The notes beneath the pieces were generated by a model. That model was not told the origin of the DNA and made no database searches. It saw only the letters and a program-made list of their open reading frames with translations. DNA of 64,000 nucleotides from Sulfurivermis fontis. GTDB taxonomy: Bacteria > Pseudomonadota > Gammaproteobacteria > Thiohalomonadales > Thiohalomonadaceae. The position numbers and the translations under genes are program-made. This document shows positions 20,396 to 25,409 of the stretch, in pieces (the first letter of the stretch is position 1; the number at the start of each line of letters is the position of its first letter). Location: positions 2,782,501-2,846,500 of the forward strand of contig NZ_AP018724.1 in NCBI RefSeq assembly GCF_004001245.1, given 5' to 3'.

Positions 20396-20842
20396 TCAGT
20401 GGGGACTCACCTGCAGCCAGAAGGTCACCGGCCCGTCATTGGTGAGGCTGACCTGCATGTCGGCGCCGAAACGGCCGCTCTGCACATCGGGATGGGCCTC
20501 CCAGGCGCGCTGCAGCAGATGGTCGAACAGGTGCAGCCCCTGCTGCGGCTCGGCGGCGGGGGTGAAACTGGGGCGGGTGCCCTTGCCGGTGTCCGCCGCC
20601 AGGGTGAACTGCGGCACCAGCAGCAGGCCGCCGCCGATATCGCGCAGACTCAGATTCATCCTTCCCTCCGCGTCTGGAAACACACGGTAAGTGAGTATTC
20701 GCTCCAGCAGGCGCTCGGCCTGCGCCTCACCGTCGCCCCGCTCGACCCCCACCAGCACCAGCAGGCCGCGGCCGATGGTTCCCACGGTTTCACCGGCAAC
20801 GCTCACCCGTGCTTCGCTTACCCGTTGCAGCAATCCAATCAT
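20396..20842 (-). CDS. dtd: D-aminoacyl-tRNA deacylase
   Basis: 148 residues, full length. It begins [15 protein letters not shown] and carries the two chirality-proofreading motifs, [12 protein letters not shown] (about residue 75) and [12 protein letters not shown] near the C-terminus. It removes D-amino acids and glycine from mischarged tRNAs in the cytoplasm. Its ATG overlaps the stop of the upstream iminopeptidase (ATGA), a pairing common in gammaproteobacteria. Confidence 0.96.
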
Positions 20843-21789
20843 GCGTAGCGCCTCGCCATGGCGTCGGTGGCCTGCAACAGGGCTTCAGTGGTGCCGCGCT
20901 CGCTGGCCGAGTGGCCGGCATCGGGGACGATGGTGAGCTCGGCCTCGGGCCAGGCCTTGTGCAGTTCCCAAGCGTTTTCGATGGGGCAGATCACGTCGTA
21001 GCGGCCATGGACGATGGCGCCGGGGATGCCGTGCAGGCGCGGGGCATCGGCCAGGATCTGGTTGGGGCGTAGAAAGCTGTCGTGCGTGAAATAGTGGGCC
21101 TCGATGCGCGCCAGGCTGAGGGCGACAAAGGGGTTGCCGAAATGGTCGATCACCGCCTGACTCGGGCGCAGGGTCGCCGTGCGTCCTTCCCACAGCGACC
21201 AGGCCTTGGCCGCCGCCATGCGCTCCAGCTCGTTGTCGCTGGTCAGGCGGCGGTAATAGGCGGCGAGCAGATCGCCGCGTTCGCTGGCAGGGATCGGGGC
21301 CAAGAACGACTCCCACAGATCGGGGAACAGGCGGCTGGCGCCCTCCTGGTAGAACCAGTGGATTTCATGGGGCCGGCACAGAAAGATGCCGCGCAGGATC
21401 AGTCCCAGCACCCGTTCGGGATGGGTTTCGGCATACACCAGGCTCAGGGTGGAACCCCAGGAGCCACCGAACAGCACCCAGCGCGCGATGCCGAGGTGTT
21501 CGCGGATGCGCTCCATGTCGGCCACCAGGGCCTGGGTGGTGTTGTTCTCCAAAGAGGCATGCGGCGTGGAGCGGCCACAGCCGCGTTGATCGAACAGGAC
21601 GATGCGGTAGCGTTCCGGATCGAAAAAGCGGCGGTGATAATCCTCACAACCGGCACCCGGCCCGCCGTGGACGAACAGCACCGGCAGGCCCGCCGGGTTG
21701 CCGCACTCCTCGACATACAGGATATGGGGCGGCTCCACGGCCAGGCTGTGGATGACATAAGGTTGCAGTTCGGGATAGAGAATGTGCAT
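20839..21789 (-). CDS. pip: Proline iminopeptidase (alpha/beta hydrolase)
   Basis: 316 residues from the ATG at 21789 ([18 protein letters not shown]); the frame extends further upstream but runs into the GacA-box region. The alpha/beta hydrolase signatures are VHGGPGAG (oxyanion hole), [10 protein letters not shown] (nucleophile Ser, about residue 110), GRYDVICP (Asp) and DAGHSASE (His). It releases N-terminal proline from peptides. It is co-translated with dtd. Confidence 0.94.
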
Positions 21790-21858
21790 GGCGGCCACCG
21801 GAATCGTCGGGTAGACCCCCATTCTAACCGCTCCGGCAGGGTGTGCCGTGGGCAGATT

Positions 21859-21876
21859 TGTAGGAATCAGCTTACA
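21859..21876 (+). promoter_or_regulatory. GacA/UvrY-type upstream activating sequence
   Basis: TGTAGGAATCAGCTTACA resembles the palindromic box TGTAAG-N6-CTTACA that GacA uses at rsmX/Y/Z genes: eleven of the twelve half-site bases match, with A to G at position five. It lies about 68 bp before the inferred sRNA start, with TATAGC at 21924-21929 as a possible -10. Confidence 0.78.
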
Positions 21877-21935
21877 AGGACTGTAGTGAGGGGCTGACTT
21901 ACATCCCACACGACTTTTGGCAGTATAGCCTCGAC

Positions 21936-22100
21936 TTCGCAGGGAGGCGGGGTCTTCGCAAGGATGCTTGATAGGGATTATCGCCGCCTGACAGGATGAC
22001 AGGCTTCCGGAAACGAATGAGACCAGGACGGTCGCGAACATCGCCCTCCGGACAGGGATGGATCAAGGACACTAAACCCCGGCTTGCCGGGGTTTTTTTT
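21936..22100 (+). ncRNA. RsmZ/CsrB-like small RNA that titrates CsrA/RsmA
   Basis: About 165 nt between two minus-strand genes, with no protein frame. It contains ten GGA motifs before the terminator. At least five lie in loops of perfect short hairpins: GCA-AGGA-TGC (21958-21967), GATA-GGGAT-TATC (21970-21982), GCCTG-ACAGGATGA-CAGGC (21986-22004), GACC-AGGAC-GGTC (22021-22033) and CCCT-CCGGAC-AGGG (22044-22057). A strong intrinsic terminator ends it and a GacA-type box precedes it. This is the architecture of RsmY/RsmZ/CsrB RNAs, which bind the translational repressor CsrA/RsmA. The 5' end is inferred from the -10 and is uncertain by several bases. Confidence 0.82.
22074..22100 (+). terminator. 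Rho-independent terminator of the sRNA
   Basis: AAACCCCGG pairs with CCGGGGTTT around a CTTG tetraloop, followed by eight T. No plus-strand protein gene precedes it, so it supports a non-coding transcript. Confidence 0.92.
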
Positions 22101-22180
22101 CACCTGAACGACACTTCCCCGCTATCCCACAGAGACGCGCGAACGCCACGGCATCCGCGCATCTCCGGCAACTGCAGCCG

Positions 22181-24004
22181 TCAGCCTTCGGCGCTGGCGC
22201 GGCCGGCGCGCTTGCGCTCGTTCTCGCCCAGCAGCTTCTTGCGCAGGCGGATGGACTTCGGCGTCACCTCCACCAGTTCGTCGTCGTCGATGAACTCCAG
22301 CGCCTGCTCCAGCGACATGCGGATCGGCGGGGTGAGCAGGATGTTCTCGTCGGAACCGGCGGCACGGATGTTGGTGAGCTGCTTGCCCTTGAGCGGATTC
22401 ACCACCAGGTCGTTGTCGCGCGAGTGGATGCCGATGATCATGCCCTCGTACACCTCCTCGCCATGGCCGATGAACAGACGGCCGCGCTCCTGCAGGCTGA
22501 ACAGGGCATAGGCCAGGGCCTTGCCGGCGCCGTTGGCGATGAGCACGCCGTTGACCCGCTGGCCGTAGTCACCCTTCTTCACCGGGCCGTAATGATCGAA
22601 CACGCTGTAGAGCAGACCCGAGCCCTGGGTGGCGGTGAGGAACTCGGTACGGAAGCCGATCAGGCCGCGGCTCGGGATGATGTAATCGAGACGCACGCGG
22701 CCCTTGCCGTCGGGCATCATGTTCTTCAGTTCGCCGCCGCGCTCGCCCAGCTTCTGCATAACCGCACCCTGGTGGATTTCTTCCACGTCCACGGTGAGCT
22801 GCTCATACGGTTCCTGCTTCACGCCGTCCACCTCGCGCACGATGACTTCGGGACGCGACACGCCCAGCTCGTAGCCTTCGCGACGCATGTTTTCGATCAG
22901 GATGCCGAGGTGCAGTTCGCCGCGGCCGGAGACGCGGAACTTGTCCGGGTCGTTGGTATCGGCCACGCGCAGCGCCACGTTGTGCACCAGCTCGCGCTGC
23001 AGGCGGTCGCGGATCTGGCGGCTGGTGACGAACTTGCCTTCCTTGCCGGCAAAGGGCGAGTTGTTCACCTGGAAGGTCATGCTCACCGTCGGCTCGTCCA
23101 CGGTCAGCGGCGGCAGTGCCTCCACCGCCTTGGGGTCACACAGGGTGTCGGAGATGTTCAGCTCCTCGAGGCCGGTGAAGGCGATGATGTCGCCGGCCTG
23201 GGCCTGCGGCACCTCGATGCGCTCCAGGCCATGGAAGCCGAGGATCTGCAGCATGCGGCCATTGCGCTTGTTGCCCTCGCGGTCGATCAGCGTCACCTGG
23301 GTATTGGGTTTGACGGTGCCGCGCTGGATGCGGCCGATGCCGATGACGCCGACATAGCTGTTATAGTCGAGCTGGGACACCTGCATCTGGAACGGGCCGT
23401 CCACATCCACCTGCGGTGGCGTGACATGCTTGACGATGGCCTCGAACAGCGGGGTCATGTCGCCGCCGCGCACATCGGCATCCAGGCCGGCGTAGCCGTT
23501 CAGGCCGGAGGCATAGACCACCGGGAAGTCGAGCTGCTCGTCGGTGGCGCCGAGGCGGTCGAACAGATCGAAGGTCTGGTCCAGCACCCAGTCGGGGCGG
23601 GCGCCGGGGCGATCGACCTTGTTGATGACCACGATGGGCTTGAGACCGCGGGCGAAGGCCTTCTGGGTGACGAAGCGGGTCTGCGGCATGGGGCCGTCCA
23701 TCGCATCCACCAGCAGCAGTACCGAGTCGACCATGGACAGCACGCGCTCCACCTCGCCGCCGAAGTCGGCGTGGCCCGGGGTGTCGACGATGTTGATGTG
23801 GTAGCCGTTCCAGTCGATGGCGGTGTTCTTGGCCAGGATGGTGATGCCGCGTTCCTTTTCCAGGTCGTTGGAATCCATCACGCGTTCGCCCAGGTTGGCG
23901 CGCGCGTCCAGGGTGCCGGACTGCTGCAGCAGCTTGTCGACGAGGGTGGTCTTGCCATGGTCGACGTGGGCGATGATGGCGATGTTGCGAAGCTTTTCAA
24001 TCAC
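22181..24004 (-). CDS. typA: Translational GTPase TypA/BipA
   Basis: 607 residues, full length. The G domain shows [15 protein letters not shown] (G1), RGITILAKN (G2), [15 protein letters not shown] (G3) and NKVDRPGAR (G4), followed by EF-G-like domains and the TypA C-terminal domain. It acts in 50S ribosome assembly and stress adaptation. It is monocistronic; the sRNA terminator lies convergent downstream. Confidence 0.97.
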
Positions 24005-24374: not shown

Positions 24375-25409
24375 TCAGGCCAGGCTGACACCCAGCAGCA
24401 TGCCGATGAGGTAGGTCACCACGCCGGCACCGCCACCGATGAGCACCATGCGCAGGCCGGAGCGCAGGGCGCCACGTCCGGTGAACAGACTCAGGGTGGC
24501 ACCGACCGCGAACAGGCCCAGCACGGCCAGGCTGGCGGCGGTGGGCACCGGCGGCATCCCCAGCGGCAGCAGAAAGGGCAGCAGGGGCAGGACCGCGCCC
24601 GCCGTGAAGGCGGCAAAGGACGAGGCGGCGGCGCCCCAGGGAGAGCCGAGGTCGTCGGGATTGAGGCCCAGCTCCTCCCGCGCCAGGGTATCCAGGGCAT
24701 GCGTCGGATCCTGCATCAGCGCCGCCGCCAGCTCGCGCGCCCGCTCCAAAGGCACGCCGCGCGCATGGTAGATCAGCGCCAGCTCCTCGGTCTCCTCCGC
24801 CGGATATTCCGCCAGCTCCTCCCGTTCCAGACCGATCTGATACTCGAACATCTCGCGCTGGGAGCGCATGGAAATGTATTCGCCGGCGGCCATGGACAGC
24901 GCGCCCGCGAGCAGGCCGGCGACGCCGGAAGTCAGGATGAAGGCGGTATCCGCGGTGGCACCGGCCACGCCCATGATCAGGGCGGTGTTGGATACCAGAC
25001 CGTCATTGACACCGAACACCGCCGCGCGCAGGTTGCCGCCGCTGCCCACGCCGCGGTGGCGCCCGCCCACCTGTTCCACCGTGGTGGGCATGGGATGGCC
25101 GGGCATGGCGGCGCCATACACCGAGATGCCGCGCACCTTCATCGCCGCCAGCACCGGGCGGATGGCACGCGGTCCCAGCCGGCGCAAGAGAGCTGCCACC
25201 AGTCGTGCGCGCTGTGTCGGCGCGAAGCCCGTTGGCACGTCCTCACCATCCGCTGCCATCTGCCGCTCCCAGATGCACGCCTGATCTTCCGCCGCCGCCG
25301 CCAGCGCGTTGAACAGCGCGCGCTTGCCACCGTCGGTTTCCACCCCGGCCAGCACCCGGTACAGCCAGGCCGACTGCATCTCCTCGTGCCAACTGTCGTA
25401 TGCAGCCAT
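24375..25409 (-). CDS. VIT1/CCC1-family metal transporter with N-terminal ferritin-like domain
   Basis: 344 residues. Residues 1-95 are hydrophilic and helical with E/H patterns (YDSWHEEMQSAWLYR, AAAAEDQACIWERQ) of a rubrerythrin/ferritin-like domain. From about 125 the VIT1/CCC1 signature AVFGVNDGLVSNTALIMG begins, followed by GEYISMRSQREM and helices to the C-terminus. Such proteins move Fe or Mn across the membrane, with the ferritin-like part oxidising or sensing iron. It follows the Crp/Fnr regulator by nine bases and is probably controlled with it. Confidence 0.85.
   Translation of the reverse strand: MAAYDSWHEEMQSAWLYRVLAGVETDGGKRALFNALAAAAEDQACIWERQMAADGEDVPTGFAPTQRARLVAALLRRLGPRAIRPVLAAMKVRGISVYGAAMPGHPMPTTVEQVGGRHRGVGSGGNLRAAVFGVNDGLVSNTALIMGVAGATADTAFILTSGVAGLLAGALSMAAGEYISMRSQREMFEYQIGLEREELAEYPAEETEELALIYHARGVPLERARELAAALMQDPTHALDTLAREELGLNPDDLGSPWGAAASSFAAFTAGAVLPLLPFLLPLGMPPVPTAASLAVLGLFAVGATLSLFTGRGALRSGLRMVLIGGGAGVVTYLIGMLLGVSLA

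Follow-up and report, generated by a model that had tools for sequence, protein, structure and literature searches.

The window analysed here (64,000 nucleotides from Sulfurivermis fontis) contains, between the minus-strand genes pip and typA, a gap in which a palindromic box, promoter blocks, a GGA-rich segment and an intrinsic terminator follow each other on the plus strand (Table 1). A sequence-only reading of the same DNA had described an 18-bp GacA-type palindrome off by one half-site base, a TATAGC -10 element, ten GGA motifs in about 130 nt, five hairpins with GGA in the loop and a terminator with an eight-T tail, with no plus-strand gene, and each of these elements was recovered. Indeed, no credible plus-strand gene was found at the RNA locus: the ORF 21996–22511 runs antisense to typA, and a one-nucleotide insertion in the terminator loop of two congeners (L034 and L035) would frameshift this ORF, the only longer one that overlaps the RNA on that strand.

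Table 1. Features of the pip–typA gap and its neighbours, in window positions; promoter-block distances take the box's first letter as their starting point.
Feature	Position	Strand	Remarks
pip, prolyl iminopeptidase	20839–21792	-	Divergent neighbour; ORF 20839–22041, likely start 21792
GacA/UvrY-type palindrome TGTAGGAATCAGCTTACA	21859–21876	+	Presumed activator site; retained in the congeners, also in other families' pip-linked RNAs
CTGACT promoter block	21894–21899	+	Fixed distance from box; YYGAC 34–35 nt from box start in several families
TGGCA block, then -10 TATAGC (21924–21929)	21918–21929	+	GGCA 59–60 nt from box start in several families
Predicted small RNA, ~165–170 nt	21931–22100	+	Approximate start ~21930–21937; kept in three congeners; sole full-length R1 match in genome
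5' hairpin GACTTCGC (AGGGAG) GCGGGGTC	21933–21954	+	GGA in loop; stem invariant in genus, loop varies
Ten GGA motifs	21943–22069	+	First bases 21943, 21962, 21975, 21994, 22009, 22026, 22050, 22056, 22060, 22067; presumed CsrA sites
AACATCGCC, weaker form of the UCAAUCACC element	22037–22045	+	Place matches the element in 17 aligned members
Intrinsic terminator AAACCCCGGC TT GCCGGGGTTT	22074–22100	+	Stem 22074–22095; 8-T run 22093–22100
typA (BipA) GTPase	22181–24004	-	Convergent neighbour downstream of RNA; ORF; at the RNA locus in other families too

The box differs from TGTAAGN6CTTACA at one position and, in the whole 3.25-Mb genome (3,246,214 bases), it is the sole such site with one mismatch or fewer. 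The base off consensus (TGTAGG) is common to the lineage and at times mirrored in the second half-site (TGTAGGAAAATCCCTACA), which makes it a lineage variant. A second, relaxed box of the same genome (position 2630331, TGTAGGCATATGCCTACA) was set aside, having six to seven GGA per 250 nt on either side and no T run. A plain sigma-70 scan of the locus returned no standard -35/-10 pair. The -10 element, TATAGC in the window, reads TATACT in the congeners L033 and L035, and in the genus a TATACT-like -10 follows GGCA. As a guess, the YYGAC block (CTGACT in the window) might provide a second activator contact; in E. coli csrB, UvrY crosslinks both at the upstream 18-nt inverted repeat and near -35 (PMC4682653).

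The ten GGA motifs lie within 127 nt, and the RNA represents the densest 140-nt GGA stretch on the plus strand of the window, where 14 of the 63,863 stretches of this length reach ten motifs; one equal peak occurs on the minus strand, near 24828. Ten GGA were reached in 3 of 5000 mononucleotide shuffles, which is unusual, and in 422 of 5000 dinucleotide shuffles of the body, which is not exceptional. Five of the motifs can occupy simple hairpin loops, versus 1.99 in shuffles (p 0.04), and the GG of GGA is predicted to be unpaired at 0.56, versus 0.25 for other G. The folding energy is ordinary and the fold not unusually stable (z -1.58). Taken alone, the box, the GGAs and the terminator are moderately improbable and suggestive only. 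Both the dinucleotide-shuffle count and the folding energy would suit a chance assembly, in which a GGA-rich gap and a palindrome happened to meet a terminator serving typA or pip; the terminator, however, follows neither gene's 3' end on that gene's own strand, and the comparative data described below speak against this reading.

Beside pip, the RNA also occurs in three congeners (L033, L034 and L035, the last of them a MAG bearing the label Thiohalomonas denitrificans), and is followed by typA in L034 and L035; the L033 stretch examined ends before that point. In the four-species alignment the box half-sites, the promoter blocks, the terminator and nine of the ten GGA motifs are invariant, with variation in the bases around the GGAs. 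Of the GGA columns 28 of 30 were invariant, versus 88 of the 113 remaining transcript columns; the trend is as expected and by itself not significant (p 0.07). Within the genus, hairpin 1 and the GACC/GGTC hairpin keep their stems unaltered; the GCCTG/CAGGC hairpin is formed from different pairs in L035 and is longer in L033. The comparison of the pip–typA gap among relatives, which the sequence-only reading had proposed, was favourable, GGAs, box and terminator being kept beside pip. The covariation of GGA hairpins sought in the same comparison did not appear, no compensatory pair changes being found inside the genus, where the sequences are too similar.

At the pip locus of other genera of the window's own family the RNA was absent. 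A long candidate CsrB-like RNA, with 19 GGA in 250 nt and its own box TGTAAGTAATTCCCTACA, was seen in another genus of the same family (L121, ~1501–1850, G014:C1:204907 onward), in the gap separating dnaJ from a DsrE-like gene that adjoins dapB. From these two observations, the RNA has in some places been lost, relocated or replaced. Among the other TGTARGN6CYTACA sites of the family, most had no GGA cluster with terminator and were discarded.

A covariance model of the four genus transcripts (R1), holding no promoter, box or neighbour information, retrieved one full-length locus from its own genome at 221 bits, with the next best match at 13 bits. In a draw of 369 gammaproteobacterial genomes the best foreign match was L141 (E 8.8e-14), and L147 and L153 matched too. 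These RNAs belong to two other families; all three are located between pip and typA, with a one-mismatch GacA box 74–83 nt upstream of the R1 match. Many weak matches in the class (e.g. L143, L144, L149) were discarded as gene ends with similar terminators, and the phage collection searched gave no match. A box and GGA-rich sequence adjoining pip were also present in Ectothiorhodospira loci fetched via pip (L083, L086, L087), and in L086 and L087 a terminator run stands where it is expected; the far-side genes of L086 are not typA. Genus conservation and recurrence beside pip in other families make the feature far more than chance, and leave a fortuitous assembly as an extremely improbable account of the locus.

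The box lies merely 67 bp from the pip start codon, and the region might be read as an untranslated leader or divergent-promoter region of pip/typA, the box serving pip and not an RNA. The promoter, the GGAs and the terminator, however, all read away from pip, towards the typA end; another gene separates pip from the RNA in L153; and the rigid promoter layout, conserved and directed away from pip, supports a real promoter pointing that way, so that we hold the leader reading to be very improbable.

GGA motifs are present in every member of the pip-linked group, usually in excess. Across all 20 members the GG of GGA is more often predicted unpaired than other G (Wilcoxon p 1.9e-6; independence does not hold for every member). 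Simple hairpin loops contain 58 GGAs, versus 29.9 expected (maximum 50 in 300 trials with the GGAs held fixed and the other bases shuffled). Near the 5' end, hairpins with a GGA loop are built on entirely different stems from one family to another (GACTTCGC/GCGGGGTC, TTAATTGC/GCAATTAA, TAATCACC/GGTGGTTA, TCGCCA/TGGCGA and CACTC/GAGTG). The terminator loops read AAGGAA in L086 and AGGGAT in L087, and thus the terminator itself could be a CsrA site.

Besides the GGAs, a block AATC(A/G)CC, mostly CAATCACC, stands ahead of the terminator in seven foreign members that the model or synteny had identified (L141, L147, L153, L024, L083, L086, L087). This UCAAUCACC element lies ~55–60 nt upstream of the transcript's end, and among blocks other than GGA none is better conserved in the pip-linked group; CAATCRCC has a background frequency of 0.055 per kb on each strand. 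A protein-blind pattern (box, N153-183, AATCRCC) matched in 11 of the 369 gammaproteobacterial genomes, versus none for the reversed control. Two of the 11 matches were the L147 and L153 loci already found by R1; all 11 are GGA-rich (5–10 GGA) with a terminator-like end, and, in the flanks fetched, ten adjoin pip and five of the 11 adjoin typA too. Conservation extends beyond the pattern itself, namely to T at -2 (13/17), C at -1 (14/17) and T after the block (13/17). The sole match with neither pip nor typA in the fetched flanks, L176 (G305:C2:952127-952321), combines the box and UCAAUCACC with a GGA-rich RNA and a terminator whose loop carries GGA, at another genomic address. In L083 (Ectothiorhodospira magna) the copy upstream of pip looks degraded, with both box half-sites changed alike, a shorter spacing to the UCAAUCACC element and no clear long T run at its end.

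The conservation of this block would fit a GacA-dependent small RNA acting mainly by base pairing with mRNAs, with UCAAUCACC as the seed and CsrA binding as a secondary property. In the window's genus, however, the place of the full UCAAUCACC of relatives is taken by the weaker AACATCGCC, whereas the GGAs are retained throughout the group, and we consider a mainly base-pairing RNA quite improbable. A different role may be suggested by CsrB, in which an initial RNase E cut is needed within an unstructured segment immediately ahead of the terminator, a segment protected by CsrA bound on neighbouring GGA sites (PMC5027483). Since the UCAAUCACC element lies in a region roughly comparable to the RNase E segment of CsrB, it is a reasonable idea that it is possibly a decay site. 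A broader proposal, which we put forward tentatively and with more doubt than belief, is that the pip-linked RNAs could form one old, vertically inherited gammaproteobacterial family outside Rfam, with UCAAUCACC as a dedicated handle, for example an RNase E entry site that would make decay of the sponge controllable, in the manner of the unstructured CsrB segment (PMC5027483).

The regulatory partners of a CsrA-sequestering RNA are encoded in the genome. One CsrA (61 residues) was found, together with a GacA 58% identical to Pseudomonas GacA (by an approximate query) and with uvrC directly downstream of gacA, which is the usual arrangement. A BarA-like hybrid kinase (L134:1320-3695; G000:C1 ~2852819-2855194) lies ~6 kb past the window end and has a BarA-type sCache_4 sensor, HAMP, kinase and receiver domains; no C-terminal Hpt domain is present, the protein ending after the receiver, so the Hpt step may come from another protein. 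The Gac-Rsm switch controlled by this RNA, as the sequence-only reading had it, is supported by the CsrA, the GacA-uvrC pair, the BarA-like kinase and the GacA box.

The computations directly show the anatomy of the locus, its conservation and its repeated occurrence beside pip, and they place csrA, gacA-uvrC and the BarA-like kinase in the genome; on these grounds the feature is very probably a GacA-activated, CsrA-sequestering small-RNA gene of the CsrB/RsmXYZ kind. From them we infer transcription, GacA binding, CsrA binding and CsrA titration. Phosphorylated GacA (UvrY) would bind the palindrome centred ~65 bp upstream of the start and switch transcription on; the resulting ~170-nt RNA, ending at the terminator, would offer about nine conserved GGA sites, several of them in hairpin loops, to CsrA dimers, and once bound it would draw CsrA off its mRNA targets. 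Counted against this explanation were the GGA count in dinucleotide shuffles, the lack of compensatory pairs in the genus, the lack of a standard -35 and the kinase without Hpt.

In gammaproteobacteria, Csr/Rsm RNAs govern a global switch of metabolism and lifestyle, but their sequences diverge so quickly that annotation misses them beyond the model genera. Together, an address that stays fixed (pip, often typA), the rigid layout of the promoter and the shared element give a simple finder for Csr RNAs in many unstudied lineages, sulfur oxidisers and phototrophs among them, and the shared UCAAUCACC element offers a testable idea on the turnover of such RNAs. The part of the literature covered contained no report in which a Csr RNA is tied to pip; some members may already have been predicted in the CsrB prediction paper of Kulkarni et al. 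(NAR 2006). What is new here is a predicted pip-linked group that spans many families, with a rigid promoter layout and the non-GGA element UCAAUCACC in common.

At gathering thresholds, Rfam gave for the window no match to CsrB, CsrC, PrrB_RsmZ or other CsrA-binding families, and likewise none for the other pip-linked loci. The search with CsrB/RsmY/RsmZ/PrrB models suggested by the sequence-only reading thus yielded nothing beyond a sub-threshold RsmY match (RF00195; 25.9 bits versus a gathering value of 57; E 2.7e-4 in the 601 bases scanned); the remaining matches, with high E-values, were dismissed as they look like terminator look-alikes. By Rfam, the window RNA is not RsmY, RsmZ, CsrB or another listed family. 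Of the RsmZ/CsrB-like identity first claimed for it, the GacA-activated, CsrA-sequestering kind is upheld by conservation, recurrence and partners, whereas no named Rfam family can be attached.

With RsmY, RsmZ and RsmX of Pseudomonas (RF00195, RF00166 and relatives) the window RNA shares its size, an upstream palindromic GacA box, a terminator, numerous GGA sites lying in loops or single-stranded parts and, for RsmY, the weak similarity just mentioned. It differs in falling far below the RsmY gathering value, in matching no other model and in its pip–typA address; moreover, the UCAAUCACC of its relatives is missing from the printed part of the RsmY consensus. CsrB and CsrC of E. coli have the same GGA-rich CsrA sponge architecture and an upstream UvrY inverted repeat (PMC4682653). 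They are, however, longer and richer in motifs (CsrB 369 nt with 22 GGA, CsrC 246 nt with 14 GGA, versus ~170 nt with ten GGA here), both are without AATCRCC, their neighbours differ, and the inverted repeat of csrB has its centre at -183/-182 (PMC4682653), versus ~-65 for the window RNA.

A close likeness is also seen with the RNAs of Ectothiorhodospira (L086, L087) and of the other gammaproteobacterial loci L170–L175 and L177–L180, unannotated in Rfam, which have the box, a GGA-rich RNA and a terminator and are adjacent to pip and often to typA; they carry the full UCAAUCACC, versus AACATCGCC in the window's genus, and their stems differ. The window RNA has the box, the GGA-rich RNA and the terminator beside pip that define this pip-linked group, and it also shows the traits of the CsrB/RsmXYZ kind, namely GGAs predicted unpaired or in loops, an upstream GacA/UvrY repeat, an intergenic non-coding position with its own terminator, and CsrA and GacS/GacA-type partners in the genome. 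It is best called, on this comparison, a putative RNA that would work like CsrB/RsmXYZ and that belongs to a pip-linked group outside Rfam.
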